Source: a virus | Direction: 5' to 3' (one strand) | IMG/VR virus record: IMGVR_UViG_3300030109_004105 | Location: 1 to 28,683 of that record | DNA length: 28,683 bases | In this document: positions 8,115 through 28,683 of the stretch, one piece after another | Layout: each line of letters starts with the position of its first letter | How positions within the stretch are numbered: position 1 is the stretch's first letter | Notes under the pieces: model-generated | The model's database searches: none | What the model was told of the DNA's origin: nothing | The model's input: only the letters and a program-made list of their open reading frames with translations | Program-made: the position numbers and the translations under genes

Positions 8115-8129
8115 AATATTCTCCAATAA

Positions 8130-15207: not shown

Positions 15208-15813
15208 TTATTTGGAATTATTTGGTTTCTTTGCTTTATCGAGTTTATCAACTGTATCTAACAATTCATTAAATTCTTTAAAGTTTTTAAAATTCTCTAC
15301 TCTTAGTACTGGATTACTTGTTCTGAAATCTTTTTTTCTCATTACCGTTTTAGCTATCAAATCTAATTCATTATTTTTTTTATCTATAGTCAATACAAAT
15401 GGTATATTAACATCACTATTCATATCAGCAATGACTGCTTGTGCTTTTGCACCCATATCTTTTATTTTAGTACCATGTTTTTGTCGTGATTTTTTAAATA
15501 AACTAAGTAGTTCGTTAGTAGTTATTTGTTCCTTGTTTCTTGCATCATTTAATCTTTCAAGAAAATGTTTAGAAAATTCTATATCAATCTTTAAAGACCT
15601 AAAAATTTTATCTGCATACTTCTCAACTTGGTCTAGTTGAGATTTAGATACTAATTTTCTTTTTTGACCTGTTACCATTGGTTTATATGTGTCGAAATAA
15701 CTAGCACCACTAGAACCATATGCATTGAGAGTAGATGCATTTAAATCGGATTCGGGTTTAAATGAATCAATAGGAAGATAAGGATAACCATATTCCTTAA
15801 AAGTTTTTTTCAT
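15208..15813 (-). CDS. Conserved structural-region protein with HFLER motif
   Basis: A 201-residue protein conserved, as I recall, in T4-like marine phages without assigned function. The N-terminal 50 residues are low in charge and look disordered. The core has IDIEFSKHFLERLNDARNKE, then VLTIDKKNNELDLIAKTVMR. The pattern H..ER, helix, then beta strands loosely resembles RelE/BECR-type toxin-nuclease folds, but this is weak. The start MKKTFKEYGY resembles the tag seen on other proteins of this late block, so it may be a head component. It follows the 96-residue gene by 2 bases and precedes the lysis promoter. Confidence 0.8.
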   Translation of the reverse strand: MKKTFKEYGYPYLPIDSFKPESDLNASTLNAYGSSGASYFDTYKPMVTGQKRKLVSKSQLDQVEKYADKIFRSLKIDIEFSKHFLERLNDARNKEQITTNELLSLFKKSRQKHGTKIKDMGAKAQAVIADMNSDVNIPFVLTIDKKNNELDLIAKTVMRKKDFRTSNPVLRVENFKNFKEFNELLDTVDKLDKAKKPNNSK

Positions 15814-15815
15814 TT

Positions 15816-16106
15816 TTAACTAACCTGTCTTTGTTTTTTTGCTTCTTCTCTTTTTGCTCTTAATTTCATGATACGTTCAACGAATTTTTTAGCTTCTCTC
15901 ATTCTACCGTCCATTTGAATAAACTTTTTTTTCTTTCTCGGTGGAACTGGAACAGTAGAACTATCATCACCTGTTCCTGATACTGCTGTACCAGTTGCGT
16001 TTGTTGGTACTTCTTCTGGCAATTCAGTTTTAGGTTTTTCGAGTCCTAATGTTTCATCAGTATAATATCGTTTCATTATTTCAGCAAATTTTGGTTTCTT
16101 ATTCAT
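15816..16106 (-). CDS. Small basic structural-region protein
   Basis: A 96-residue protein. The middle segment VPTNATGTAVSGTGDDSSTV is a linker type I recall from several T4-like marine-phage virion-region proteins. It is flanked by a short N-terminal part and a strongly basic C-terminal helix (RKKKKFIQMDGRMREAKKF to the end). It could bind nucleic acid or an acidic partner in the capsid, by inference. Its ATG overlaps the stop of the upstream gene (ATGA at 16103-16106), so translation is coupled. Two bases separate it from the next gene. Confidence 0.78.
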   Translation of the reverse strand: MNKKPKFAEIMKRYYTDETLGLEKPKTELPEEVPTNATGTAVSGTGDDSSTVPVPPRKKKKFIQMDGRMREAKKFVERIMKLRAKREEAKKQRQVS

Positions 16107-16714
16107 CTCTCTTTTATATCCTCTAAGCTTATATATATTGTTTCTTTTGATTTTTCATGAATAACAGAAAAGATTTCTACACCTAAAATAGTATCTGTAG
16201 GAGAAGTATCTTGTGTCGCAAAAACTTTATCACCTTTTTTAGCAACTATATCTTCTGACTGTCGACTTAAAATATCACTTTGAAGTACATACTCTCCTTT
16301 AGGTAATATCTCTCCAAATCCAATGACTTCTTCAGATATACTATCATCTATTTCATAATTTTCTTTTAAATATTCCAAAAATGTTTTTTCTATAAATCGT
16401 GGGTCTTCAAAATGTTCTTTAAATGTATCTTTAAGTAAAAATAATGCAGCTGCATATGTACCTACTTTTGTTTTTATGCCAGGCACTTTCAAAAATATTT
16501 TTTTAATATTAAAAACAAGTTTATGTAAAATAGTATATGCGTTTTTTAATTCCGAAGTTGTTAATTCAACAGCAGGTTTACTAGAATTTTCTTTTTTAAT
16601 TCTATTACCTTTATTGTCTATAATACCTAATTTAAATGCATCTGATTTTTCAAAAGGAGTTGTAAGAATCCTTATAAAACGATATGCGACAAATAAATCA
16701 ATTGCTGAGCCCAT
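16103..16714 (-). CDS. Conserved structural-region protein of unknown function
   Basis: A 203-residue protein. IDLFVAYRFIRILTTPFEKS and DAFKLGIIDNKGN near the start, VGTYAAALFLLKDTF in the middle and a C-terminal half rich in beta strands (IFSVIHEKSKETIYISLEDI) match a conserved family I recall from T4-like marine phages. Function is not known; the position within virion genes suggests a head, neck or internal protein. No signal peptide is seen. The AAGGA-type site lies next to the ATG at 16714, and the gene is 17 bases downstream of the 244-residue gene. Confidence 0.8.
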   Translation of the reverse strand: MGSAIDLFVAYRFIRILTTPFEKSDAFKLGIIDNKGNRIKKENSSKPAVELTTSELKNAYTILHKLVFNIKKIFLKVPGIKTKVGTYAAALFLLKDTFKEHFEDPRFIEKTFLEYLKENYEIDDSISEEVIGFGEILPKGEYVLQSDILSRQSEDIVAKKGDKVFATQDTSPTDTILGVEIFSVIHEKSKETIYISLEDIKER

Positions 16715-16731
16715 TTCTATTTTCCTTTATC

Positions 16732-17466
16732 TTATGTTCGTGTTTTACCTTTTAATTTTTTGATTACATCTTTTAATTGTTTGAGTGATTTATCTACTGC
16801 ACGTTCTTGTGCAGATATTGGTAGATATACATACGCTTTTATTTGTTTTATAAGGTCTAACTCAGCCTTTTTGACTTCTGGTTTATATTCTTCTTCAATT
16901 GATTCTTTAAAAGAATTGATAAGCATACTCGATTTATTTCCTTTCTTAACTGCATATTCAAGACTTTCTTTATCACTTTTATTTGATTGATTCATTTTGT
17001 TAGCAAATAAATCTAAAAGTTCTTTTGGTGCGCTTCCACCTCGTACAAGCATTTTTTCAGCAGATATTCTTGTCCATCCCGGTTTTCTTGGCGCTGTATC
17101 CTTATCTCTGGCATAAAGTGAATGGTCATATTTGAATGGATTTCTAGTTTCTGTTAATACATCTTCTTTAAATGATTCTGATATCTTTTGTTCTAATTTT
17201 TCTGTAAAGGAATTTAAAAGGTCTTTATCCTTACCACCATATTCTTTATACTTCTTTTTAAGAATAGCAATAAATTGTTTTAATTGTTTTGGGCTTTGTC
17301 TAATTGGAACTATTTTTTCGGCATCAGCCATAGCTTTTTTTAAATTTGCATCACTACCAAGCTTTTTATACCTTTCTACGCCACCACCTTTTTTAGCTAT
17401 TGGAAACTTAGTGCTATCAGGTCGTGAATAAGTAAATTCTTTAAATGTTGTAAATTTTTTTTCCAT
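16732..17466 (-). CDS. Hypothetical lysine-rich structural-region protein
   Basis: A 244-residue, very lysine-rich protein not assigned to a family. It starts MEKKFTTFKEFTYSRPDS, an N-terminus of the K-F-x-x-F-K-E-F type shared with other proteins here. It contains helical stretches (QLKQFIAILKKKYKEY, ISAQERAVDKSLKQL) and a central NPFKYDHSLYARDKDTAPR. The basic charge and late position suggest an internal or DNA-contacting virion protein, but nothing decides this. It is tightly packed between its neighbours (2 and 17 bases). Confidence 0.75.
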   Translation of the reverse strand: MEKKFTTFKEFTYSRPDSTKFPIAKKGGGVERYKKLGSDANLKKAMADAEKIVPIRQSPKQLKQFIAILKKKYKEYGGKDKDLLNSFTEKLEQKISESFKEDVLTETRNPFKYDHSLYARDKDTAPRKPGWTRISAEKMLVRGGSAPKELLDLFANKMNQSNKSDKESLEYAVKKGNKSSMLINSFKESIEEEYKPEVKKAELDLIKQIKAYVYLPISAQERAVDKSLKQLKDVIKKLKGKTRT

Positions 17467-17468
17467 CT

Positions 17469-17831
17469 TTATAACTCTTTTAATTCTTTTAAAAGCACCT
17501 CATCAGTTTCTATATCAAGTAATTCATCTGGTCTTAATATATTTAAAAATAACATAAATGCTTTTAATGCACCCCAATATTTCCTATCTATTTTAAACAA
17601 TAACAAAGTTGCAGCTACTTCTCCACCAAACACATTAATCAAAAGTGTTATATGATTCAATAACAAGGTTTTTTTTAAATTACCTGTTTCATAATATTTG
17701 CGAAGAAGTCGTTTAATGTATTTAAATTTCTTTAAATCATCTTTAAACTCTTGTTCGCCTTCACATTCTGGATTATTGTAATGCTTAATAGCAAACATCA
17801 TCCAGTTATCCTGTGTTATCTTTTCATACAT
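17469..17831 (-). CDS. DUF7207-like conserved phage protein
   Basis: A 120-residue helical protein with the pattern I associate with the DUF7207 family of T4-like phages: NWMMFAIKHYNNPECEGEQE, FKDDLKKFKYIKRLLRKYYE, then LLLNHITLLINVFGGEVAA and ALKAFMLFLNIL. It has no signal peptide; the hydrophobic stretches look like buried helices. Function unknown. The conserved position among structural genes suggests a role in head or tail assembly. Start ATG 17831; the stop lies 2 bases before the ATG of the lysine-rich 244-residue gene. Confidence 0.85.
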   Translation of the reverse strand: MYEKITQDNWMMFAIKHYNNPECEGEQEFKDDLKKFKYIKRLLRKYYETGNLKKTLLLNHITLLINVFGGEVAATLLLFKIDRKYWGALKAFMLFLNILRPDELLDIETDEVLLKELKEL

Positions 17832-17864
17832 AATAAAACCACAACTTGTTAAAGTCTAAATCTA

Positions 17865-18326
17865 CTATTCACCAAGTCTTGCAGTCAACAGAGTTGAGCC
17901 AGCAGGACTTAAATCGTGTGTAAAATGAATCTTAATTGGATTTTCTCTCATGTGTGCTTGTCCAGTTGGGTCATTTGTTATTTCGTCTGGTGCTTCTTCT
18001 CCAGTTTTTCCAAATTTACCACCATGAACAATCAACACTTCAGATATTTCACCATTGTCGCCTGAAAAAGTAGGTACATTAAAATCAATACCCACAGAAT
18101 TCAATGCTTCACGTAATTTTTTGATTGCATGGTATGGATTTAAATATTCTCCACTAATCGAACCAACATATGAGTTCAATTCTTTTACAACCATATCATT
18201 ACTAAGGTCTGCAAGATTCATATTATCACCAATCATTTCACCACCAAAGCCTGGATTAACTCCAACACTAGATGCTGGCAAATCTGAACGTGATTCTTCT
18301 GTTACAAAACTTTTAAATCTTTTCAT
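17865..18326 (-). CDS. Virion-region protein with capsid-targeting-like start
   Basis: A 153-residue protein that I do not assign to a family. It begins MKRFKSFVTEESRSDLPASS, close to the T4 internal-protein tag MKTYQEFIAEA (from memory). A head-protease type site (x-T-E before E) is possible. The rest has NPYHAIKKLREALNSVGIDF and VLIVHGGKFG, then a C-terminal IHFTHDLSPAGS. The frame opens at 18347, but ATG 18326 has AAGGGA upstream and gives the tag-like start. This start overlaps the end of the preceding gene by 14 bases. Probably a head component; the function is inferred from position and start. Confidence 0.78.
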   Translation of the reverse strand: MKRFKSFVTEESRSDLPASSVGVNPGFGGEMIGDNMNLADLSNDMVVKELNSYVGSISGEYLNPYHAIKKLREALNSVGIDFNVPTFSGDNGEISEVLIVHGGKFGKTGEEAPDEITNDPTGQAHMRENPIKIHFTHDLSPAGSTLLTARLGE

Positions 18327-18534
18327 TTTTATTTCCCTTATCATCATTAGAATCTTCCAATTTTATATTAGAAGATTCATCAGATATTACTTCAGTTAAA
18401 ACTTTCTTTTTCTTTCTACTTGTCTTTTTAGTAGATGTAATTTCAGGAGCTTCGGGAGAAACCTCAATCAATGTTTGTTTTTCATCAACCATAGGTTTTC
18501 CGCCAGCACCATATTTAATCAGTTTTTCTGTCAT
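18313..18534 (-). CDS. Small hypothetical charged protein
   Basis: A 73-residue protein, MTEKLIKYGAGGKPMVDEKQ onward. A short ordered-looking start is followed by a K/S/E/D-rich, probably disordered tail (TSTKKTSRKKKKVL). No family recognised. AGGG lies before the ATG at 18534. It overlaps the next gene by 14 bases. It lies between two virion-type genes, 13 bases after the beta-rich 148-residue protein. Confidence 0.7.
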   Translation of the reverse strand: MTEKLIKYGAGGKPMVDEKQTLIEVSPEAPEITSTKKTSRKKKKVLTEVISDESSNIKLEDSNDDKGNKNEKI

Positions 18535-18547
18535 AATTCAATCCCTC

Positions 18548-18994
18548 TTATGCAAGAGTACAACCTTGATTAGCAATTACACTCCAACCAGCTGTTGAAT
18601 CTGTATATAATAATATACAAGCATCACCATCTGTATTAAATGTAACAGTTGTGTATCCATTTAATGTAGTTGGTGTTAATGTTGCATCGCCACCATCTGT
18701 AATCATAGTGATGATTTTAACTTGTCCTGTGCTACCATTTGCAAGTGTTAATGCAATCGCACCAGAAGTTGCAACAGTTGTTACTGCAGTTGTTAGATTA
18801 ACTGCACCAGCAGAAGTTATTGCCTGTGGTGTAGAATCAAATGCCAACCATGTTGGAAAATTGTTAAATAAATTAGCAATACTAATTTTTTTATTAACAG
18901 GTGTACCTGATGGGTCGTCAATAACATGAAGTAAATCTTCAGCGGCAACTCCAGTACCTAAATCTGTTAATGCTGTAATTTTTTTATCAGCCAT
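18548..18994 (-). CDS. Beta-rich virion structural protein
   Basis: A 148-residue, T/A/G-rich protein with few charges. The start [20 protein letters not shown], then [23 protein letters not shown], is a signature I associate with capsid-decoration or fibre-like proteins of many tailed phages. The rest is predicted beta (alternating T, V, I and G). It should be exposed on the virion. AGGAG precedes the ATG at 18994. It is transcribed with the MGLWG protein and the 75-residue coiled coil, probably from the late boxes at 19943-19960. Confidence 0.85.
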
Positions 18995-19021
18995 TTTTTA
19001 TCTCCTATAAACCCGTAAGAA

Positions 19022-19249
19022 TTACTTTTTCTTATCGGGAATGCTACTGTCGGCATTATCACCGACATCACTTTCGTTATCTAATTCTTGAAGAAATTGG
19101 TCACATTGTTGAATTGCACCAGATAAAGCTGTTATTCTTGTAAGTGCATTGTTTCGCTCTTTATCAAGTTTTTCAATAAGGTTTGACATTGTTTCAACAT
19201 CCTTTTCCAATGTAACCTTTCTTTCTTCAATCTTTTTTTTATCAATCAT
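19022..19249 (-). CDS. Small coiled-coil protein
   Basis: A 75-residue protein that is one long helix with heptad-like spacing (KIEERKVTLEKDVETMSNLI and LDKERNNALTRITALSGAIQ). A short acidic tail follows, ending DKKK. No family recognised. GAGGTGA precedes the ATG at 19249. It lies between two virion structural genes and may be a small assembly or fibre-attachment factor, by inference. Confidence 0.78.
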   Translation of the reverse strand: MIDKKKIEERKVTLEKDVETMSNLIEKLDKERNNALTRITALSGAIQQCDQFLQELDNESDVGDNADSSIPDKKK

Positions 19250-19293
19250 ATTGTTATATCACCTCACTTAATATAATTTCGTATATCTTACGA

Positions 19294-19911
19294 CTAGTTT
19301 GTTACTGTTCGTACTTGTACCACATCAGAAATATCTAATGAAGCAGCAAGAGTTGTTCCACCAACTACTGTATCAGAAATTGTTCCACTATTAAGTGCAA
19401 TAGCAGAAGGTGTAGTTAACACATCTGTGTTACCTAAACTAGCACTTGTCTTCTCAAAGCGTTTTCTGTTAGCAGTCGAACCAGTTGCAGTATAAGTTAA
19501 GACGTGGTTGCCATAACCACCACCTGATTGGTTTCCGTTAACAACAGTAATTTGTGGACTACCAGCAACAGTAACTTCTTCATCCCAAGTAACTTCAACA
19601 AGTATTCTTTGTGTTCCGTCACCAGCGGTCATATCAGTTGTTGCAGTTGTTCCAACAACATATCTTAATGCTGTAACTGTTGGTGCTCTTAAACCAGTAC
19701 TTGAAGATGAACCAGCAAGGTCGCCAATCGCAACTAAAACTTCAGGTTGTGCAGAAGTATTGTCATTTCCACTAGCTGCAGTTCCAGCCTGTCTTACCCA
19801 ACCCGCTTGAGTTGCATAGATAGTCTGTTTTTTATAATCTGAGTTCTCATCTGTCGGCTTATCTTTTGGTTTGTTTGATGCCGAAGCGTGAGCTGTTCCC
19901 CATAATCCCAT
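19294..19911 (-). CDS. Virion structural protein, MGLWG family
   Basis: A 205-residue protein starting MGLWGTAHASASNKPKDKP, followed by IYATQAGWVRQAGTA and PEVLVAIGDLAG. This N-terminus is one I recall from virion proteins of T4-like cyanophages and pelagiphages. The second half is T/G/V-rich and probably beta-sandwich (RILVEVTWDEEVTVAGSPQI, VLTYTATGST). It likely decorates the head or belongs to the tail. A strong AAGGAG site precedes the ATG, and a late box TATAAATA lies 32 bases upstream, both typical of an abundant late protein. Confidence 0.86.
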   Translation of the reverse strand: MGLWGTAHASASNKPKDKPTDENSDYKKQTIYATQAGWVRQAGTAASGNDNTSAQPEVLVAIGDLAGSSSSTGLRAPTVTALRYVVGTTATTDMTAGDGTQRILVEVTWDEEVTVAGSPQITVVNGNQSGGGYGNHVLTYTATGSTANRKRFEKTSASLGNTDVLTTPSAIALNSGTISDTVVGGTTLAASLDISDVVQVRTVTN

Positions 19912-19942
19912 AATCGTTCTCCTTTTTTTTTATTCTATACTT

Positions 19943-19960
19943 TATTTATAGTTATTTATA
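19943..19960 (-). promoter_or_regulatory. Two T4-type late promoter boxes in tandem
   Basis: TATAAATA occurs twice on the minus strand, at 19950-19943 and 19960-19953, in and after the stop of the HAD gene. The nearer one is 32 bases from the MGLWG start codon. Twin boxes ten bases apart before a major structural gene support real use. Confidence 0.68.
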
Positions 19961-20503
19961 TCCTAATTTTTTTAATTGTCGTATAGTAGTACTAACATCT
20001 TTATGTAATATTCCTATGCCACCTGCTTTTTTCCACTCATCTACATTTTTAAGGTGGTCGTCAATAAGGACATTAGGATTTCCCTTATCAACTGCAAATT
20101 TTTGTTTATCTTGTCTTTTTACTATGTTTATTCTATTTCTGGGTAATTCTCTCATATTTTTATTTACCCAAACCAACTTATCCCTCTTAGAATTATCATC
20201 CCTCGATGAATATGCACTTAATACATGTGATGGATATTTACTTACCATTTTCCAAAGTCTTTTTGAATTTGGCATCCATTCTAAATTTTTCCAAAAATCT
20301 TTTGTTTTATTAATTACCTTCCATCTATCTTCTTGTGGAACTTCTAACCAACTTTTAATTTTAGGATACTTATCAAGAAGTGTTTCTAATGCACCCTTTT
20401 CTAAATCTACTAAAACACCATCTAAATCAATATAAATCTCTGGTAATTTAGAATTCTCTTGTTCTGAAAGATATGCATACCTAACATCATAAAATTGTTT
20501 CAT
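19952..20503 (-). CDS. HAD-superfamily phosphatase, 5'-nucleotidase-like
   Basis: A 183-residue protein with the HAD motif I IYIDLDGVLVDLEKG (nucleophile D26, second D28). Motif II lies around HVLSAYSSRDD, a lysine region in INIVKRQDKQKFAVDK, and motif IV in NVLIDDHLKNVDEW (paired acids). The overall pattern fits the phage deoxy-5'-nucleotidase-like or polynucleotide-phosphatase-like HAD enzymes. The substrate cannot be decided from sequence. It acts in the cytoplasm, or possibly in the virion given the late location. It follows the 444-residue gene by 5 bases and ends in late promoter sequence. Confidence 0.85.
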   Translation of the reverse strand: MKQFYDVRYAYLSEQENSKLPEIYIDLDGVLVDLEKGALETLLDKYPKIKSWLEVPQEDRWKVINKTKDFWKNLEWMPNSKRLWKMVSKYPSHVLSAYSSRDDNSKRDKLVWVNKNMRELPRNRINIVKRQDKQKFAVDKGNPNVLIDDHLKNVDEWKKAGGIGILHKDVSTTIRQLKKLGYK

Positions 20504-20508
20504 ATTTC

Positions 20509-21843
20509 CTAATATTTACCAGCTTTAATATCAGAAGTTTTTGGATTTACATCAATATTGTCTTTAGGTTTCCCCGTTAATGTTTTACCATTAGGTTTAC
20601 GTTTTTCACCAACTTCCTTTGGCTCATTTTTACCCTTCCAATTTTTATCTACATAGTCATAAAATTCTTTTTCTTTATCGCCATCTAATTCACTAGGACT
20701 TTTTACACCAAACTTTTTCATTGCAGATTTAAAAAACTTTTGATATTCTGTTTCTTCTTGAAATTTAGTTAAGATATCAATATATTTTGATGGTGAAGTT
20801 ACTTGTTCTCTACGATTTTTGAAACCTACTTTGTAAAAATCGACTGGAGTAACAACTTCTCCACTTCTATGGTTAATATTACCTTTTGGTACAAATCTAT
20901 ATTCAAAGTCACTATTTCTTTTATCAGCAGATAATTTTTTAACCATTTTTTCTGCTTCTCTTTGATTATAGATTTTTCCTAAAGTTCTATCTCTTTCTAA
21001 TCTGTAAATACCATCTCGCCTTTTCTTATTTGTATAAACAACTTGGAATTGTGTTCCTTCACCAGCACGACCAATATATTTCGTTCCTTCATCAATTTCA
21101 ACTTCTTCTTTCTTAGTTGCCATCAACTTGTCGTGGTTGGCAATTGCATACTTTTCTGCATCTTCTCTATTGTCAAATTCTTTTGCAATAGTACCATCTG
21201 CATTATATACACAAAACTTGTCACCCTTTTTCTTAACATGGTCAGTTGGATTCATTTCTTGTAGGTCATTCTTATCTGGATTAATTGCATGTTCATGCAT
21301 TGAACTTGCAAGTATCTTTAGTGTAGAAACTGAAACGTCTTTCTCTAGTCCATGTTCAAACATAATATCATAATGTGTAACAGTACCATCTTCATCGAGT
21401 GTATGTTGTTCTTTTAATGGATTTCCTTTACCCCATTCTGCATGTTCTACTTTAGTAGCACAATCGTGTTTTACTTTCATCCCCTTAGCTTTACCTATTG
21501 CTTTTTGCAACTGTTTAGAAGTAACTTCTTCTCTAGTATGTGGAAACTTTCCAGCAACTGTTATACGAAGTTTTTTAAGTTCTTTAACAATCTCATCAGT
21601 TTCAACTTTATGTGGAGAATCTGCATTAGACATTACATAACTTTGAATATCGTTTAAAGTAAGAAACTTTTTCTTTGTTAATTGTTGTTGGAATTCTTTT
21701 TTAATATCTTTCGCAAGTAGTTTATAGTTAGTAACAACTTCATCAAGTTGTTCTTCTTTACTATCTGGATTCCAAATTTGTTCAACAGCATCTTCCAATG
21801 TTCCCTTTTCTATTTTTTTAAAGTAATCATTTTGTTTTTTCAT
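20509..21843 (-). CDS. Large virion-region protein with the LEDAV-type N-terminal tag
   Basis: A 444-residue hydrophilic protein. The start DYFKKIEKGTLEDAVEQIWN, then a KEEQLDEV segment, is paralogous to the starts of the two genes upstream. The middle has WGKGNPLKEQHTLDEDGTV and FCVYNADGTIAKEFDNREDA, small beta-type units. The C-terminal third has EYQKFFKSAMKKFGVKSPSE, a motif I recall from T4-like marine-phage structural proteins. L-x-E sites that a gp21-like head protease could cut are frequent. I infer an internal-head or scaffold-type protein; no enzyme motif is seen. GAGG lies upstream of the ATG. Confidence 0.75.
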   Translation of the reverse strand: MKKQNDYFKKIEKGTLEDAVEQIWNPDSKEEQLDEVVTNYKLLAKDIKKEFQQQLTKKKFLTLNDIQSYVMSNADSPHKVETDEIVKELKKLRITVAGKFPHTREEVTSKQLQKAIGKAKGMKVKHDCATKVEHAEWGKGNPLKEQHTLDEDGTVTHYDIMFEHGLEKDVSVSTLKILASSMHEHAINPDKNDLQEMNPTDHVKKKGDKFCVYNADGTIAKEFDNREDAEKYAIANHDKLMATKKEEVEIDEGTKYIGRAGEGTQFQVVYTNKKRRDGIYRLERDRTLGKIYNQREAEKMVKKLSADKRNSDFEYRFVPKGNINHRSGEVVTPVDFYKVGFKNRREQVTSPSKYIDILTKFQEETEYQKFFKSAMKKFGVKSPSELDGDKEKEFYDYVDKNWKGKNEPKEVGEKRKPNGKTLTGKPKDNIDVNPKTSDIKAGKY

Positions 21844-21874
21844 TGTTTTCTTCCTCTATAATCCTATTCTTCTG

Positions 21875-22321
21875 TTATGTTGTTTTCCCTTTTGCACTAA
21901 TGTAGTCAGCCATACCATCTAATTTATTTACCGCTGTTGCAACTTTGTTTGTCCACCAAGTAGGAAGGTCATCTTCATCATTTAGTTTTGCTAATTCTGT
22001 ATTCATCTTTTGTAAAGCTTCCATAGCAATCTGTACTTGTGTTTTCATAGATGCCACATCAGTATGACCTGATTCTTGCATATCTACTTCTTCCATAATA
22101 TAAGCATCAACTCCTGCTGTGTTTTTAAGTCTTTTCATCTGTGCAAACTTTTTTGCAGCTTCATATGAACTTTTTGCTTTTATAATTTCTTTACCTTTTT
22201 TAATATGAACTACTGTGTATGTATTTTGTTTTTCATCAAGTTCTACTTCTTCAAATTTAACAACTTCCAAAACTGCATCTTCTAACGAATTCTTTTTGGT
22301 ATCTAAATATTTTTTTCCCAT
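21875..22321 (-). CDS. Virion-region paralogue, 148 residues
   Basis: Begins MGKKYLDTKKNSLEDAVLEV and continues to FEEVELDEKQN. The first 13 residues are identical to those of the 121-residue gene just upstream. Then come a YTVVHIKKGKEIIKAKSSYE beta-alpha unit and a helical end (VQIAMEALQKMNTELAKLND, KVATAVNKLDGMADYISAKG). VELDE could be a head-protease cleavage site. Start and stop overlap the upstream gene (TAATG at 22321). It is probably an internal-head protein whose tag is shared with its neighbours. Confidence 0.78.
   Translation of the reverse strand: MGKKYLDTKKNSLEDAVLEVVKFEEVELDEKQNTYTVVHIKKGKEIIKAKSSYEAAKKFAQMKRLKNTAGVDAYIMEEVDMQESGHTDVASMKTQVQIAMEALQKMNTELAKLNDEDDLPTWWTNKVATAVNKLDGMADYISAKGKTT
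22275..22321 (-). repeat. 47-bp repeat encoding the shared N-terminal tag (copy 1)
   Basis: The first 47 bases of the 148-residue gene match 22640-22686, the start of the 121-residue gene, at 44 positions. The repeat includes the start codon and encodes M-G-K-K-Y-L-D-T-K-K-N-S-L-E and the next residue. Confidence 0.85.
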
Positions 22322-22686
22322 TATTGTGGCCCTATATACCTTAATTTAAATTTAAATCTTCCTTTCTTCAAGAAATTTTCAACATCTCTTTTAGTCTTCA
22401 TCTTAATTCGTGGATGTATCTCATCAATATTTAAAATGCTTAACTCATCTCCATACATATCCCTATCAAAATCATACTCTGCTCCACCACCACCACCGTA
22501 ACCTGGTGGTCTAATGCCATTTTTATCAAGATAGTTTCTTGCTTTCTTAAACTCAGACATCTTATCAAAATCTAATACAACATATTCTAAATCATCTGGT
22601 GCTTCTGTAATTGTATCTCCATTCCAAATTTTTTGAACAGCCTCTTCTAAAGAATTCTTTTTTGTATCTAAATATTTTTTTCCCAT
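22321..22686 (-). CDS. Virion-region paralogue, 121 residues, one-domain form
   Basis: Begins MGKKYLDTKKNSLEEAVQKI, the tag shared with its neighbours. A single domain of about 88 residues (31-118) follows, with FDKMSEFKKARNYLDKNGI, a glycine run, SILNIDEIHPRIK and VENFLKKGRFKFKLRYI. The same domain occurs inside the 660-residue protein encoded upstream (its residues about 205-292). A free copy with its own tag thus sits beside an embedded one. No enzymatic motif is evident. The stop overlaps the next start, and the 660-residue gene ends 1 base before this ATG. Confidence 0.78.
   Translation of the reverse strand: MGKKYLDTKKNSLEEAVQKIWNGDTITEAPDDLEYVVLDFDKMSEFKKARNYLDKNGIRPPGYGGGGGAEYDFDRDMYGDELSILNIDEIHPRIKMKTKRDVENFLKKGRFKFKLRYIGPQ
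22640..22686 (-). repeat. 47-bp repeat encoding the shared N-terminal tag (copy 2)
   Basis: The start of the 121-residue gene; 44 of 47 bases match 22275-22321. High identity at DNA level, while the gene bodies differ, suggests recent duplication or gene conversion limited to the tag. Confidence 0.85.
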
Positions 22687-22687
22687 C

Positions 22688-24670
22688 TTATTTTTCTTCC
22701 TCTAAATTACTCATTCTTAAATAATTTTGACGATATGAATCAATATATGCTATTCCTTTTTTCGTACCTAATTTTTTAATTATGTTATCTAATTTATCAA
22801 CTGCTTTTTTATCTTTATTTTTTAGAAAATGAAAGAAACCTTGAACAGTTTTTTCTTTTTTTCTTTTATCTGTAATATCAGCAACAAATGGATAATGTTT
22901 TTTTACAATAGCAAGTCTTTCTGCATCAGTTTTTGCAACAACATCTGAAATTTTACTTCTTTCATCAATATGTTCTTCTTTTTGAAGAAGATTTTTTGCT
23001 TTGTTTTTATCATAATATTTAAATGTAAATATTTTACCTTTAAATTGTCTATCTAAACCCTGTACCTTATAACCTTTATTATCCATTTTTATAATCTTAC
23101 CTAAAAACTTATCACCTCTTTTGGGTTCGTAAAAATCTAATTCCTGTCCTACTTTAGCTCGTTGTTTTGTTTCTGTACCCATACCCTTAGTAGCAAGTGT
23201 TCTAAAGTTTTCACCAAGTTCATCTTCATCAAGTGCTTTTTGCAAGTCTTTAGATTGTCCAGCGTGTGCTTGACTTGCTTTCTTTAATTTACCTATAACT
23301 TTTTTAATAATAGTTTCATCATCTTTATCTAATTTTTCATCAAGTTTAACTTCTTCATTTATATCAGTTCTACCAAATCCAAGTTTAGGGTCGCCTTTAG
23401 TCATTGATGTTAAGTGGTTTATCATATACTTTTGAACTTCATCTTCAATACCGACATCTTTTGCTTTAGTTATAATCTTATCATATAGTATTTCTGCTTT
23501 CTTTTTCTGTTCTTCACTTGCACTACCAGAGTTCATTGCATCTTTTTCCATTTTAAAGAATACATCTTGCATTTTAGCAAGTTCCTCTGCGCCATCTTTA
23601 TCTGCGTATTTTTTCATTACTTCTTGTGCAGAGCCACACATGTGAAAAAACTTAGTTGTGTAATTACCTACAGTAATTTCATGTTTTGGTTGTTCATCAA
23701 GTTCAACTTCTTCTTTTTTCTTTTTGCCTTTTTCTTTGTAACCACTAGCAAATGCAGCTCTTCTTTGAGCATCTGAAGCAAAACCTTCATTACGAATATA
23801 ATTTAATTCATATTTAAATCTTCCTTTCTTCAAGAAACTATCTACACCTCTTTTAGAATTAATGCTAGGTGAAAGTTCATCAAGATTAAAAATGGTTATC
23901 TCATCTTTAAATTTATTAAAATCAAAAGCAGGCTCCATTTCATTACCACGATAACCTTGCGAAAGACCTTGACTTTCAAAATACTTTACTGCTTTCTTAA
24001 ACTCAGACGTACTATTAAAACTTAATTTTGGAAGTACATAGTCAAGATAAGCTTCTGTAACTTCTTTTTTAGTATCTTTGTTCAACATTATTTGTTGGAC
24101 ACTACGTATTAATGTTTCTTCTTTTTTATCTTTAGAATTTTTCATATCTTCTTTTTTATCTTTTGCTTTTAGATAAGCAGCTATCGCCATCTCCTTGCGT
24201 TTTTCTTTTGATAGTCCATCAAATTGTGGATTAGTAGATTTTTGAAAATCATCAATATATTTTTTTACATCATGTTTTTCTGGGTCGAGTGGTTCTTGAA
24301 TAACTACCGCTTCCATTGCAACTGGTTTTCCTTTTCTAATAAAAGAAAGTAAATCTTTATAAGACTTAGAAATCGTATTTTGATAATCACCTTTTTGTTG
24401 AGATGTTTTATGTTTATCATAGAGTGCAATTGCTGCCTTCGCAATTTTATCTGGAACTCTTGCTGTTTTCTTATCTCCAAATTCTACTTTGAATGAATTA
24501 CCCAAACCAATTTGTTTTTTAAGTTGTATCATTATGTTTTTATCTGCACTTGCAATATCTTTTGCAGTTGCAACATCATCAACGTCAGCAGGGTCGACAT
24601 CTTTAACATCTTTATATTTTGTCTTTAAATATTTCGACAGATTCATACGTTCTAATTTATTTTTTTCCAT
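22688..24670 (-). CDS. Large modular virion-region protein
   Basis: A 660-residue hydrophilic, charge-rich protein. Near the start are ERMNLSKYLKTKYKDVKDVD and a helical region. Residues about 130-175 hold YIDDFQKSTNPQFDGLSKEK and then MAIAAYLKAKDKK, a motif I recall from T4-like marine-phage structural proteins. Residues about 205-292 are a paralogue of the 121-residue protein. Later come a TTKFFHMCGSAQEVMKKY helical unit and an SH3-like YEPKRGDKFLGKIIKMDNKG (about 515-555). VELDE and VKLDE recur as likely head-protease sites. This looks like a polyprotein-like internal or scaffold protein; the function is inferred. Confidence 0.75.
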   Translation of the reverse strand: MEKNKLERMNLSKYLKTKYKDVKDVDPADVDDVATAKDIASADKNIMIQLKKQIGLGNSFKVEFGDKKTARVPDKIAKAAIALYDKHKTSQQKGDYQNTISKSYKDLLSFIRKGKPVAMEAVVIQEPLDPEKHDVKKYIDDFQKSTNPQFDGLSKEKRKEMAIAAYLKAKDKKEDMKNSKDKKEETLIRSVQQIMLNKDTKKEVTEAYLDYVLPKLSFNSTSEFKKAVKYFESQGLSQGYRGNEMEPAFDFNKFKDEITIFNLDELSPSINSKRGVDSFLKKGRFKYELNYIRNEGFASDAQRRAAFASGYKEKGKKKKEEVELDEQPKHEITVGNYTTKFFHMCGSAQEVMKKYADKDGAEELAKMQDVFFKMEKDAMNSGSASEEQKKKAEILYDKIITKAKDVGIEDEVQKYMINHLTSMTKGDPKLGFGRTDINEEVKLDEKLDKDDETIIKKVIGKLKKASQAHAGQSKDLQKALDEDELGENFRTLATKGMGTETKQRAKVGQELDFYEPKRGDKFLGKIIKMDNKGYKVQGLDRQFKGKIFTFKYYDKNKAKNLLQKEEHIDERSKISDVVAKTDAERLAIVKKHYPFVADITDKRKKEKTVQGFFHFLKNKDKKAVDKLDNIIKKLGTKKGIAYIDSYRQNYLRMSNLEEEK

Positions 24671-24680
24671 GTTTCCTGTC

Positions 24681-25187
24681 CTATGTTGATGTTAGTGGTC
24701 TTTTATCCCCTTGTGCTTTCTTAGCATCTTGAGCTAACTTCATTACTTCTCTTACTGTATATGATTTTGGATTTTGTATAGCATCTCTAAGTTGAGCTTG
24801 TGGCCACTTTTCTTCTTGAGCAACGATATCTAAAATAATTCGTGCTGACTTATCATCAAGAGTAAGTTTACCACCTTTAAATTCAATAACACCCTTACCA
24901 CCTTTAGTCCTAGCAATTTTGAATATTGCACTTGCTGTTTTATCCTTACTTACGATAGAATCATATCCTTGAAATTCATTAAGTTCTGTTTCTTCTTGTA
25001 CTGGTTTAATATTTCCTATAATCTCACGAACTCTACGTCTATCCATATCAGTAAGAATAACTATATCATCTTCGGTTAATCCATTTTCAGCATACTCAAC
25101 AATATCTCGTTCTTGTTGTTCTCGTATATCGTGGACAGTTCGGCCAAACTTTGTGTAAAAATCGTTATAAAATTTATTCATTTCCAT
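24681..25187 (-). CDS. Virion-region protein with helix-turn-helix-like start
   Basis: A 168-residue protein. Residues about 25-55 (VEYAENGLTEDDIVILTDMD, then RRRVREII) resemble a helix-turn-helix. ETELNEFQGYD follows, with L-N-E as a possible head-protease site. A second domain has IEFKGGKLTLDDKSARIILD and a helical end. The mix of a DNA-binding-like start and a cleavable linker next to internal-head-type genes suggests a DNA-associated virion protein, but no family is recognised. AAAGGA precedes the ATG at 25187. Confidence 0.72.
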   Translation of the reverse strand: MEMNKFYNDFYTKFGRTVHDIREQQERDIVEYAENGLTEDDIVILTDMDRRRVREIIGNIKPVQEETELNEFQGYDSIVSKDKTASAIFKIARTKGGKGVIEFKGGKLTLDDKSARIILDIVAQEEKWPQAQLRDAIQNPKSYTVREVMKLAQDAKKAQGDKRPLTST

Positions 25188-25209
25188 ATTTCCTTTCTTT
25201 ATATTTATC

Positions 25210-26031
25210 TTATTTGCTATTTAAAGTTTCAGTAATCATATGTTCTTGTAAGGTTTCCAACCAAACTTTTTTATATCCTTTCTTTTCAGTAAGAATAGTT
25301 ACATAATTTGTTCCACGTCTTAGTATTTCACCTAGTTTTGTCTTTTCTCCTACACGCAATATCTTTCCTGTAAGATATGCATCTCTAAATTGTTCATAAT
25401 CAGTCATTTCTCCTATCCATTGTTTTTCATCACGAATATTCATATGTTTTCTTACATCTTTAAATAATCTTTCTGCACCCTTAAATCCTTTTGGAAGTCC
25501 ACTTTTGAACGCACTTATATCTCCACTAGCGGCAGCACTTCTCATTTTTGAAGCAGACATTCCTGTTACACCCTCTGCATCGGGGTCTCTCTCGCCAGCA
25601 GATACAACACCTATACTTTCAAATTTATAATATCCATGTCGTTTTCCTTTAACACCATTATAAGTATCTAATAATTTTTGAAATTCTTTAATTCTATCAG
25701 AACCAGCAACCATTACTAGATTTTTATAACCTTCATCATACAACTTAGTTGCAATCGCCATTGCTGTAGTTGCATCTTGGTCTGCAATAATTTTTCTTGC
25801 ATGTTTCGGAAACATCTTTCTCATATATGCAATTTTAAGTGCATGTGGTAATGGGTCTTTTGTTGGGTTTTTTGTAAAAGATGGATAAATTCTATAATCA
25901 CTAGAACCAGCAACACTCGCAACTTTATTAATTAATTTTTCGTGACCAGTAGTAGGCGGATTGAATCTTCCAAACGCAAAAACAACTTTTTCTTTTGCTT
26001 CCGTTAAAACCTGTTTAAAACCTTTCATCAT
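25210..26031 (-). CDS. Cytidylyltransferase-fold nucleotidyltransferase with capsid-targeting-like start
   Basis: A 273-residue enzyme of the HIGH-motif nucleotidyltransferase family (NMNAT/RfaE/PPAT-type fold). FAFGRFNPPTTGHEKLI (18-34) carries the T-x-G-H form of the nucleotide-binding motif, and GMSASKMR (157-164) is the second signature (ISSTxxR type). VMVAGSDRIKEF lies between. The family transfers AMP or CMP to a phosphorylated acceptor; the substrate here is unknown. The C-terminal 80 residues are an extra domain. The start MKGFKQVLTEA (second ATG, 26028) closely resembles the T4 internal-protein targeting tag, so the enzyme may be packaged in the head. It follows the basic gene directly. 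Confidence 0.87.
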   Translation of the reverse strand: MMKGFKQVLTEAKEKVVFAFGRFNPPTTGHEKLINKVASVAGSSDYRIYPSFTKNPTKDPLPHALKIAYMRKMFPKHARKIIADQDATTAMAIATKLYDEGYKNLVMVAGSDRIKEFQKLLDTYNGVKGKRHGYYKFESIGVVSAGERDPDAEGVTGMSASKMRSAAASGDISAFKSGLPKGFKGAERLFKDVRKHMNIRDEKQWIGEMTDYEQFRDAYLTGKILRVGEKTKLGEILRRGTNYVTILTEKKGYKKVWLETLQEHMITETLNSK

Positions 26032-26442
26032 TTATTTGTTACCACCTGATTTTAATTTTCTAACTCTTTCTACTTCTTGTTTTCTCATTATTCTTACTAA
26101 CTTCTTTGCAATCTTTGGTATCATAGATGCTTTCTTTTGAAGTTGCATATCTATTTTCATCTTTGCTGAAATAGGCAGATTCTTATAATCTATGTTTCCA
26201 TAAAACTTTTTAATCATTACCATTTTAGCACGTTTCATTGCACGTTTCATAAGTTTATCACCTGTAGCAACTCTACGAAGTGATAGTTCTCTTTTCTTTT
26301 TAAACGCACCAGATTTTGAAAGTCGTTTCATTCTTATTGCAAGTTTTCTTCGTTGTGCAATATTTAATGGTTTTCTTTCTTCTAAATCATGCAAACCTTT
26401 TGATTTTTCTACATCTACTGTTATCTCTTTAAATGATTTCAT
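26032..26442 (-). CDS. Very basic internal-head-type protein
   Basis: A 136-residue protein dominated by R, K and M in helices (AQRRKLAIRMKRLSKSGAFK, KLMKRAMKRAKMVMIKKF), with a strong net positive charge. The start MKSFKEITVDVE resembles the capsid-targeting-like tags of neighbouring proteins. Charge and size recall DNA-binding internal proteins or a histone-like capsid component. No known fold motif is visible. It abuts both neighbours (stop followed at once by the next ATG), so coupled expression with the cytidylyltransferase and ligase-like genes is likely. Confidence 0.8.
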   Translation of the reverse strand: MKSFKEITVDVEKSKGLHDLEERKPLNIAQRRKLAIRMKRLSKSGAFKKKRELSLRRVATGDKLMKRAMKRAKMVMIKKFYGNIDYKNLPISAKMKIDMQLQKKASMIPKIAKKLVRIMRKQEVERVRKLKSGGNK

Positions 26443-27684
26443 TTACTTATCCCAATTTTTTATGGCAGTAAAGTTATTAAAACTAAACTCCATTCTATCT
26501 ACTAACTTGACTGCGTTTCCACTTATTCTATCTATAGCAACATAACCTTCAGGATTCGTTACTTTAAATCCATCAGATGTTTTAACAAATGTATCGGTCA
26601 ATTGTTTAATACTATTTAGTTTTTTAACTATCAAAATCTTTGCTTCAACCAAATATTTCTGCATAGTAAACACTTGTATTAAAGTAGGTATTTGTTTTTT
26701 AAACTCTCTAACATATTCTGTTTTTCTAGTTTCGTATTCCTGTTTCTTTGCTGGTGTTTTTATTTTTTTAGTTTCATCATCAAACTGGTCTTTCACATAC
26801 TGCAAATATCCTTGTGCATGTTTGCTTGGATTCGTTATAGGTACACCTTGTCTTACAAATTTGTTATTATATGTCTTAATAGTTACCTTTGCAAATTTTC
26901 CAGAAAGACTTTCCTGTAATTTTAAAAATCTATTTAATGTCGGCACATTAATTTTTTGAAATGCAACTCCTGTTTTTGATAATAATGATGTAACCGCTTC
27001 TGTTTCCTTTGCAGTAAATGTAGATTTACCAGATGTATCTTTATAACTTGCATCATCCATCCATACTTTTGAGGATTTAGTTAATGAATTTATATTGACA
27101 CCAAATGATGCTTTCATATCTTGAAGTTCTTTTCCAGTATAAGTGGTGTGCCACACAACACCTATGTTAGCACTCTTAATAGTTTTTCCTAAATCAGAAT
27201 CAACTGGAACTGCATAAACAATTGTGTTCGGTTGAAAAGTATAATACTTGACACCATCTATTGTATCATTTTCAACACTATCTTTTGTGAACATTAAATC
27301 GCCTTGCAATACTCCTTTGATTCCTAACTTAGAAAATTCTTTAAGAGCAACCTTTAACTTCGTACTTAAATCTCCAGATGTATCTGCATCAACATCTGCA
27401 TTTGTTTTATATAATTTTGGTGTTACATTGAACACAGATTTCTTTGCAACAAAAAATTTATTATCTGCTGGGTCGACACCAGCAAATACTGCTGGAGCAC
27501 CATCCCACTTAACTGTCATGTTAACAGAACTTCGAGAAGCACCAGATAACATATTACGAAGTGAACGAAGAAACTCTATAGAAGCTCTTCCACCCTTAAC
27601 ACCGAAATTAATTATTTCATCTTCGAGATGTTCGAGATGTAAATTCTTTCCTTGTTTATCCTCTGTTAAAAATTCTATTGTCAT
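26443..27684 (-). CDS. DUF6267-like protein with nucleotidyltransferase/ligase-type motifs
   Basis: A 413-residue protein of a family I recall as DUF6267 in T4-like marine phages. MTVKWDGAPAVFAG (56-69) contains K59-W-D-G62, which fits motif I (K-x-D-G) of covalent nucleotidyltransferases (DNA/RNA ligases, capping enzymes). FFVAKKSVFN (77-86) and VLQGDLMF (125-132) lie where motifs III and IV would be. YTFQPNTIVYAVPVD is a further strand region. It could therefore ligate or cap nucleic acid ends, by inference. The start MTIEFLTED is short and tag-like. It overlaps the upstream stop by one base (TAATG). Confidence 0.85.
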   Translation of the reverse strand: MTIEFLTEDKQGKNLHLEHLEDEIINFGVKGGRASIEFLRSLRNMLSGASRSSVNMTVKWDGAPAVFAGVDPADNKFFVAKKSVFNVTPKLYKTNADVDADTSGDLSTKLKVALKEFSKLGIKGVLQGDLMFTKDSVENDTIDGVKYYTFQPNTIVYAVPVDSDLGKTIKSANIGVVWHTTYTGKELQDMKASFGVNINSLTKSSKVWMDDASYKDTSGKSTFTAKETEAVTSLLSKTGVAFQKINVPTLNRFLKLQESLSGKFAKVTIKTYNNKFVRQGVPITNPSKHAQGYLQYVKDQFDDETKKIKTPAKKQEYETRKTEYVREFKKQIPTLIQVFTMQKYLVEAKILIVKKLNSIKQLTDTFVKTSDGFKVTNPEGYVAIDRISGNAVKLVDRMEFSFNNFTAIKNWDK

Positions 27685-28683
27685 TAAAATACCTTTAAAT
27701 GAACAGAAGAATTAGCAGATATAGATTTTGCATATCTATATGCTAAACTTAAAAATTTCTGTTCTCGACCTTTTAATTCATTAAACATTAAAGTTACTAG
27801 ATATTTGGATTCCAGATACCCACTATTCTTTCCTTTAAAATTGTTAATAAACTCTTTTATTGATATATTTTTTTGTCCAGCTCTTAAATATTCATTATAG
27901 AACATTTTGAAAAATTTATTTTTATCTTTTTTAATTAATGTTTCAATTTCTCTTCTTGGTGGAATCGGCTTTGCACCAGCTTTTGCCATAACGATACCTA
28001 TTGGGCCTTTTGGCCCAGCATCACCACTTATTTTTCCATGTTTAGCAACCTTACCTATAATCTCACCTTGAAACGCTGGAAAAGTTCTAAACTGTATTTC
28101 TCCACTATCAAAAAATATATAACCATCTTTAGACTTGAAAAAATCTCTTTTGCCTAAAGAAGTTTTTGTAAATTTTGGTTCTTTAAAAGGTTTTTTCCAA
28201 TTCATTTGAGCTATTTTTGGTTTCTCTGTTTTCTTTAAAGAAACACCAATGATATCTCTATTAGTATAAGCTTTTAAAAGTAATTCGTTATAATATGGAA
28301 GTTCTACTACATTCGCAAAATCATAACTACCTATTTTTGATTCATCTACTATCCATATATCAGCTGGATTCCATTTGTTAATATCTGTAAAATCTTTTTG
28401 TCCAGTTTTTTTAAATGTTTTTTCAATTATATTTTTTACAAAATCATCTGAGCCTCTATGAAAAGTATAATTCCTTTTAGGAAGAACTTTATAAAGTAAT
28501 TTGGCAATTAAAGTTGAAGAAACTACCCAATCCTGTGATAAATTTTTTATCATATCAAAAGTTGCATTAGTTTTTGTTTGACTAAACGCCTGTGTTAATT
28601 CTGCTTCATTAAAATCTGTTTTGGGATTATTCCAAATTGCTTGCAAATAAACACATTGTGCAGATTCACCAGCAGTTGTTCCA
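27684..28683 (-). CDS. Virion-region protein, N-terminus outside window
   Basis: The frame is open to the right edge of the window. A TTG at 28646 could serve as a start, but the codons before it encode GTTAGESAQCVY and read smoothly, and no ribosome site is seen there. I take the gene as truncated by the window. About 333 residues are visible. SLGKRDFFKSKDGYIFFDSG and KHGKISGDAGPKGPIGIVMAKAGAKP are distinctive. I recall relatives in T4-like marine phages without known function. A mixed alpha/beta cytosolic or virion protein is likely. It ends TAATG into the ligase-like gene. Confidence 0.82.
   Translation of the reverse strand, partial: GTTAGESAQCVYLQAIWNNPKTDFNEAELTQAFSQTKTNATFDMIKNLSQDWVVSSTLIAKLLYKVLPKRNYTFHRGSDDFVKNIIEKTFKKTGQKDFTDINKWNPADIWIVDESKIGSYDFANVVELPYYNELLLKAYTNRDIIGVSLKKTEKPKIAQMNWKKPFKEPKFTKTSLGKRDFFKSKDGYIFFDSGEIQFRTFPAFQGEIIGKVAKHGKISGDAGPKGPIGIVMAKAGAKPIPPRREIETLIKKDKNKFFKMFYNEYLRAGQKNISIKEFINNFKGKNSGYLESKYLVTLMFNELKGREQKFLSLAYRYAKSISANSSVHLKVF

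Follow-up and report, generated by a model that had tools for sequence, protein, structure and literature searches.

The internal protein IPIII of bacteriophage T4 begins with MKTYQEFIAE↓A (the arrow marks the cut), in which targeting to the prohead core depends on residues 4 and 7 and the removal of the tag on residues 8 and 10; the T4 protease gp21 cuts after L/I-x-E (PMC9026906). In the T4 record IPII and IPIII both start with MKTYQEFIAEA, and IPI with MKTFKEFTST...TITEA. NMNAT-like proteins recur in the virion proteomes of cyanophages, with at least one group undecided between cargo and lysate leftover (PMC9602691). Here we describe T4-like N-termini encoded by the minus strand of a viral DNA stretch of 28,683 nucleotides (the window), which covers almost the whole of a 29,099-base IMG/VR fragment (IMGVR_UViG_3300030109_004105) of a marine phage of the T4 superfamily. 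These N-termini are very probably T4-type capsid-targeting propeptides, whose carriers would be bound to the core, cut by a gp21-type protease, kept in the head and, by analogy to T4, brought into the host.

The nearest named relative in the phage collection is Methylophilales phage Melnitz (67% identity for the DUF6267 protein described below), with Pelagibacter phage HTVC008M and the cyanophages more distant. The genes at 15-28.7 kb of the window show broad synteny to Melnitz gp15-gp31 and HTVC008M gp126-gp143.

Four N-termini and the T4 register

The initial annotation singled out four starts, and all of them are present on the minus strand: MMKGFKQVLTEA (26031/26028), MKRFKSFVTEE (18326), MKSFKEITVDVE (26442) and MTIEFLTED (27684). 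They belong to the following genes:

25210..26028, minus strand: NMNAT/NadD-fold adenylyltransferase (Foldseek, Pfam), exact-register tag MKGFKQVLTE↓A (codons 25999-26028)
17865..18326, minus strand: 153-residue protein, tag MKRFKSFVTE↓E (codons 18297-18326), exact register kept in 5/7 unique orthologs
26032..26442, minus strand: basic protein of 136 residues, putative tag MKSFKEI...HDLEE↓RK (propeptide codons 26380-26442), of variable length in orthologs
26443..27684, minus strand: DUF6267 protein with ligase-like motifs (PF19782, 346 bits), putative tag MTIEFLTE↓D (codons 27661-27684)

The exact T4 register was defined, at the very start of the protein, as an aromatic residue at position 4, a hydrophobic one at 7, L/I/V/M at 8 and E at 10 (H at position 7 was admitted only after Melnitz gp27 had been seen). 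MKGFKQVLTE↓A and MKRFKSFVTE↓E agree with the T4 tag at positions 4, 7, 8 and 10, those shown to be important by T4 mutagenesis, and the proposed likeness therefore holds in full for the NMNAT-fold and 153-residue proteins. It does not for the other two: the DUF6267 start has E at position 4 and is 8 residues long, and MKSFKEITVDVE has T8 and D10, which places both outside the register. On the strength of their orthologs, these two are put forward as variant tags only. The cleavage motif, given in the initial annotation as x-x-E, is corrected to the L/I-x-E of the T4 protease; LTE↓A and LTE↓D of the window conform to it, and VTE↓E departs by its V. The cut suggested at VDVE of the basic protein is probably wrong, as the aligned site is HDLEE↓RK (ELIE↓RK in Melnitz), and many orthologs have an L/I-x-E↓R/K site. 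For the 153-residue protein, the longest open reading frame (ORF; 18347) starts seven codons earlier, and a ribosome-site-like AGGGAAA stands just before the ATG at 18326.

The scan for the register covered ORFs from 80 IMG/VR loci and from reference phages, with unique N-termini counted and shuffled N-termini taken as the expectation. Within the window the enrichment is modest, with 2/42 genes (both named in the initial annotation) against 3/903 unrelated ORFs (binomial P ~0.009). The families give more: the exact register is found in 18/54 unique N-termini of DUF6267 (0.04 expected by shuffling), in 5/7 of the 153-residue family (0.00 expected), in 2/16 of the Melnitz gp15 family and in 4/47 of the basic family. 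No match occurs in RecA (0/22), DnaB (0/42), the primase or a number of other late families. Among 441 Melnitz ORFs only three match strictly: gp15, gp27 and an alternative start of gp16, every one of them inside the syntenic cassette. A bare I-L-E is not enough to call a tag, being found also in the start MNFILETYL of an oxygenase (S-SCSM1_88) that is not marked as a virion protein.

The DUF6267 peptides upstream of the conserved KNLHLEH are free in sequence apart from their end, which is nearly always E with D, S, N or Q behind it. Members of the NMNAT-fold family mostly have F at position 4, and their tag usually ends in E↓A or E↓S and is, in most of the relatives, one residue shorter than the T4 register. 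In the AlphaFold structure models, with the window and the IMG/VR loci as the only input, residues 1-10 of the DUF6267 protein have pLDDT <50, and the tag of the NMNAT-fold protein is a low-confidence helix preceding the first strand. The NMNAT-fold domain occurs untagged in jumbo phage K64-1 and cyanophage S-CAM1; the tag is thus no part of the domain. In two loci (L007 and L075) a relative of the window protein starting at 15813 is fused to DUF6267, and the tag survives as the linker between them, with the joints LSFEQFIKE↓DKAGKNL and LSFESFIVEDFLAE↓DKGGKNL (shorter reading FLAE↓D).

Virion homologs, proposed cargo enzymes and probable late expression

Virion analyses of four cyanophages have found NMNAT-like homologs in purified particles, and 4/4 are tagged. 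They are T4-GC190 of S-SM1 (Sullivan et al. 2010, PMC3037559), with MKKFSAFLNE↓A in its record; gp154 of S-CREM2, detected with 3 unique peptides (PMC10665884), with MKNFSSFLTE↓A; ORF91 of S-SCSM1 (PMC9602691), with MKSFLQFLKE↓A; and S-SZBM1_140 (PMC9146016), with MRFRQFIIE↓A. ORF90 of S-SCSM1, homologous to the window gene 27684-29078, also has a virion-protein annotation. The untagged DUF6267 of S-SZBM1 (MAKNTHLEHLED) and its neighbour 142 are absent from the printed virion table (PMC9146016), a non-detection that is weak evidence. The virion table of S-CREM2 also holds gp156 (L103 6405-7118), which starts MKKLISEL and carries the GG...S...DIDLH motif typical of Pol-beta nucleotidyltransferases.

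The NMNAT-fold protein is the best-identified enzyme. Its top Foldseek matches are NadM/NadD (E 2e-5, prob 1.0, TMt about 0.4-0.6), Pfam CTP_transf_like scores 21.5 bits (cut-off 21), and the motifs GRFNPPTTGH ... SASKMR are conserved in the family, in keeping with membership of the superfamily. The NadD equivalog TIGR00482 scores 19.4 bits against a cut-off of 112 bits, and a sequence-profile search of the PDB with the family returned chance matches only. In DUF6267, K59-x-D-G, QGD, EG-x-V and K393 are invariant in 29 sequences (residues K59, D61, G62, G128, D129, E379, G380 and K393) and follow the order of ligase-type motifs I, III, IV and V, the motif names being assigned by eye. Fold comparison gives many RNA/DNA ligases at Z 4.6-6.2, tied with unrelated helical proteins and not above noise; the best Foldseek E value is 0.33 (nothing under 0.3), BAR-domain matches were dismissed as helical noise, and the PDB profile search gave nothing of note. 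The conserved motifs suggest a ligase-like protein, the fold match being weak. The initial annotation had, should the tags be real, DNA- and nucleotide-modifying enzymes packed in the capsid: the enzymes agree with the tagged homologs in the four cyanophage virions, whereas "DNA-modifying" is a loose term for a set in which the best-identified member has an NMNAT/NadD fold and the other is called ligase-like on the grounds just given. In HTVC008M a zeta-toxin/PNK-like kinase gene (L085 21563-22225; PF06414, 50 bits), whose product starts MIPFILKE↓G, lies between the DUF6267 and NMNAT genes.

Melnitz and HTVC008M encode a gp21-type protease, which itself starts with ...YITE↓A and ...LIAE↓A, respectively. 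The site that reads FLTE↓A in T4 gp23 has counterparts in the major capsid proteins of Melnitz (FLSE↓A), HTVC008M (FLGE↓I), S-SM1 (ILTE↓T) and three IMG/VR relatives (FLGE↓A or FLSE↓A); FLSEA is common to gp15 and gp23 of Melnitz. The T4 late-promoter box TATAAATA is found 47 bases upstream of Melnitz gp15, the first gene of the cassette. As such boxes are no more numerous in the window as a whole than chance would give (8 vs 6.3), the comparison was confined to those at orthologous places. Five phages have a box of this type upstream of the S-layer-type gene or of the gene in the equivalent position, and three have one upstream of the sheath gene; others precede the HTVC008M portal gene and Melnitz gp23, and none was found upstream of the recA, dnaB, uvsX, gp41 and polymerase genes checked. 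In the window two of them (19943-19960) precede the S-layer-type gene at 19911, with the corresponding box in Melnitz (GATAAATA), HTVC008M, S-SM1 and S-SCSM1. This placement fits late expression.

For tag cleavage, packaging in this phage and injection we infer the following course. The tagged NMNAT-fold, DUF6267, basic and 153-residue proteins, and probably other members of the cassette, would be made late and would bind to the prohead core by the aromatic and hydrophobic tag residues. The gp21-type protease would then cut the tag after L/I/V-x-E, and the mature proteins would remain in the head with the DNA, to enter the host with the genome as do the T4 internal proteins and Alt. Given the T4-like tags and the related enzymes with the same tag in purified particles of other phages, this phage probably brings ready-made enzymes into its host. 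Packaging of DUF6267 is predicted from the tags for the Melnitz-like lineage and for Stenotrophomonas phage DLP6 (MMKFTQFLAE↓S), and is not predicted for the cyanophages examined.

Alternative explanations of the shared N-termini

Among the alternatives, the one that survives best is that the tags recruit proteins to the prohead core to serve in assembly or size control, and that these proteins have no role after injection. The cassette is rich in multidomain proteins with much lysine and glutamate and with internal protease-like sites, comparable to the core proteins of T4 that end up cleaved to peptides; the NMNAT-like protein, however, is found in mature virions, and the invariance of the catalytic-type motifs of DUF6267 across phages would be needless in a pure scaffold, so that we regard this explanation as unlikely. 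Short leaders acting in translation initiation or N-terminal folding, with no targeting role, would agree with the position of most tags at tightly packed or overlapping start sites. Such a role is improbable, since the same leader reappears inside the L007 and L075 fusions, where an initiation function is impossible, and since the tag is poorly structured in the DUF6267 model and precedes the first strand of the NMNAT fold. A coincidence of composition, in which K, F, L and E are merely common at the N-termini of a phage with 30% G+C and the similarity to T4 is meaningless, can draw on the mere two strict matches in 42 window genes and is nevertheless hardly credible in the face of near-zero counts for shuffled N-termini and control families, numerous tagged orthologs, and tags on 4/4 virion-detected NMNAT-like homologs examined.

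Several points weigh against capsid targeting itself. A looser variable-length pattern, which matches 16/25 N-termini of the NMNAT-fold family (0.4 expected), 37/47 unique N-termini of the basic family (1.3 expected) and 3/13 unique orthologs of a deoxyribonucleotidase family (p 0.002), was written only after looking at the sequences. The orthologs share descent and are not independent samples, and for this reason the P values overstate the evidence; the stronger point in favour of targeting is the convergence of unrelated families on one peptide. HTVC008M has zero strict matches, certain DUF6267 orthologs carry just short tags (e.g. MQSLME↓N), and the window DUF6267 tag is missing the aromatic residue at position 4. 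The phage's own gp21 and gp23 are absent from the fragment, with neither a gp21-type protease nor a capsid gene seen in its 29 kb. Purified virion preparations can carry contaminants, as the authors of the S-SCSM1 study state (PMC9602691), and RegA is likewise annotated as a virion protein in that phage. N-terminal peptide data were not found for any of these proteins.

The rest of the cassette and comparison with known systems

Further genes of the window, some with candidate tags, are:

15208..15813, minus strand: MKKTFKEYGYPYLPID... protein, start like T4 IPI MKTFKEF, no clear L/I-x-E nearby
16732..17466, minus strand: MEKKFTTFKEFTYSRPD... protein, candidate only, TFKEF as in T4 ipI by sequence comparison
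19952..20503, minus strand: 5'(3')-deoxyribonucleotidase (NT5C; PF06941, 25.8 bits), possible tag MKQFYDVRYAYLSE↓Q
20509..24670, minus strand: multidomain proteins of core type, whose internal (K/E)EE..[LI][DN]E motifs are candidate sites for protease cuts
27684..28683, minus strand: candidate PDDEXK-like protein (phrog_1462, E 2e-25; PDDEXK by motif only)

The deoxyribonucleotidase, absent from the initial annotation, is a further, weaker tag case. The phrog_1462 gene (27684-29078) has its start codon at record base 29078 and a long propeptide ending in ILALSE↓A; a run of N past 28683 breaks the gene, and its first part is therefore outside the window. The motif (K/E)EE..[LI][DN]E occurs at 8 distinct sites (12 overlapping pattern matches) in six cassette proteins, with 0.18 matches expected from shuffles, one of the sites falling in the next gene, at 25187. 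Judged by this motif, the multidomain proteins at 20.5-25.2 kb could be cut internally.

The products of the adjacent genes 21875-22321 and 22321-22686 have identical first 14 residues (MGKKYLDTKKNSLE) and different bodies, and starts of the same kind are found in Melnitz gp21 (MSKYLETKKGSIESAVLEA) and in locus L055 (MPKYFDTKKGSLESAVLEA); a second N-terminal module may exist. The 121-residue protein (22321-22686) resembles an internal stretch of the 660-residue protein (22688-24670), as if a domain had been duplicated into a gene of its own. Two large core-type proteins of other loci (L084 17131-18519 and L085 24430-25548) start with MTRYNKTMSE↓A and MTRYTKTMAE↓A, in the T4 register at Y4, M8, E10 and A11 but with T at position 7; the 660-residue protein of the window (start at 24670) is without such a start. 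An 825-residue protein at 5649-8126, with a start resembling a signal sequence, contains acidic repeats (MDMDMDEQPSTMTFES) and matches no Pfam family.

Capsid targeting in T4 and the presence of NMNAT-like proteins in cyanophage virions are already known. The link between the two, together with the spread of the tag in one lineage to an enzyme with ligase-like features, appears to be new in the literature searched, which left most subscription journals outside; there, capsid targeting and cyanophages come together only in a T4 review, with cyanophages just in its references, and DUF6267 has no mention. The tag would supply a packaging mechanism for the NMNAT-like virion proteins, with the mature N-terminus predicted to the residue, and would separate homologs predicted to be packaged (tagged) from those predicted to stay out (untagged). 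T4 capsid targeting, a subject of coliphage work, would extend to phages that infect abundant marine bacteria, and injected proteins could be spotted from sequence alone. A more speculative idea, which we hold to be doubtful, is that marine T4-superfamily phages inject a toolkit (NMNAT-fold protein, ligase-like DUF6267, candidate nuclease and nucleotidase) with interchangeable tags, acting on NAD or broken nucleic acid before phage expression; if true, it might for example counter NAD-depleting or nucleic-acid-cutting defence. PADLOC assigned no defence family to the six cassette proteins submitted.

With IPI, IPII and IPIII of T4 the putative propeptides share an N-terminal tag of ~10 residues, the aromatic residue at 4, the hydrophobic ones at 7 and 8, E10 and the cut before A, and basic or small head proteins are among the carriers in both. 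Here, in contrast, the carriers include enzymes with untagged homologs elsewhere, tags also stand as linkers inside fusions, and similarity beyond the tag is not seen. T4 Alt, an injected ADP-ribosyltransferase, is likewise a head-packed enzyme with a short propeptide removed by gp21; the enzyme families differ, and injection in the present case is proposed by analogy only. The NMNAT-like virion proteins of cyanophages (S-SM1, S-CREM2, S-SCSM1, S-SZBM1 and, as reported, also S-CBWM1) are homologous and virion-detected, the first four with the same tag and most with a similar gene neighbourhood, but their domain often follows a longer linker behind the tag and the neighbouring DUF6267 is untagged in those examined. 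The ejection proteins of giant phages (SPN3US, phiKZ; gp245/gp175) also have head propeptides, some with shared N-termini, and a gp21-like cut after E, yet the motif is A-x-E or S/A-x-E and the cargo is different. Polyvalent proteins (PMC5512222) are fusions of unrelated domains, presumably injected together with the DNA, whereas the cargo proposed here consists mostly of separate short proteins, each with one tag.

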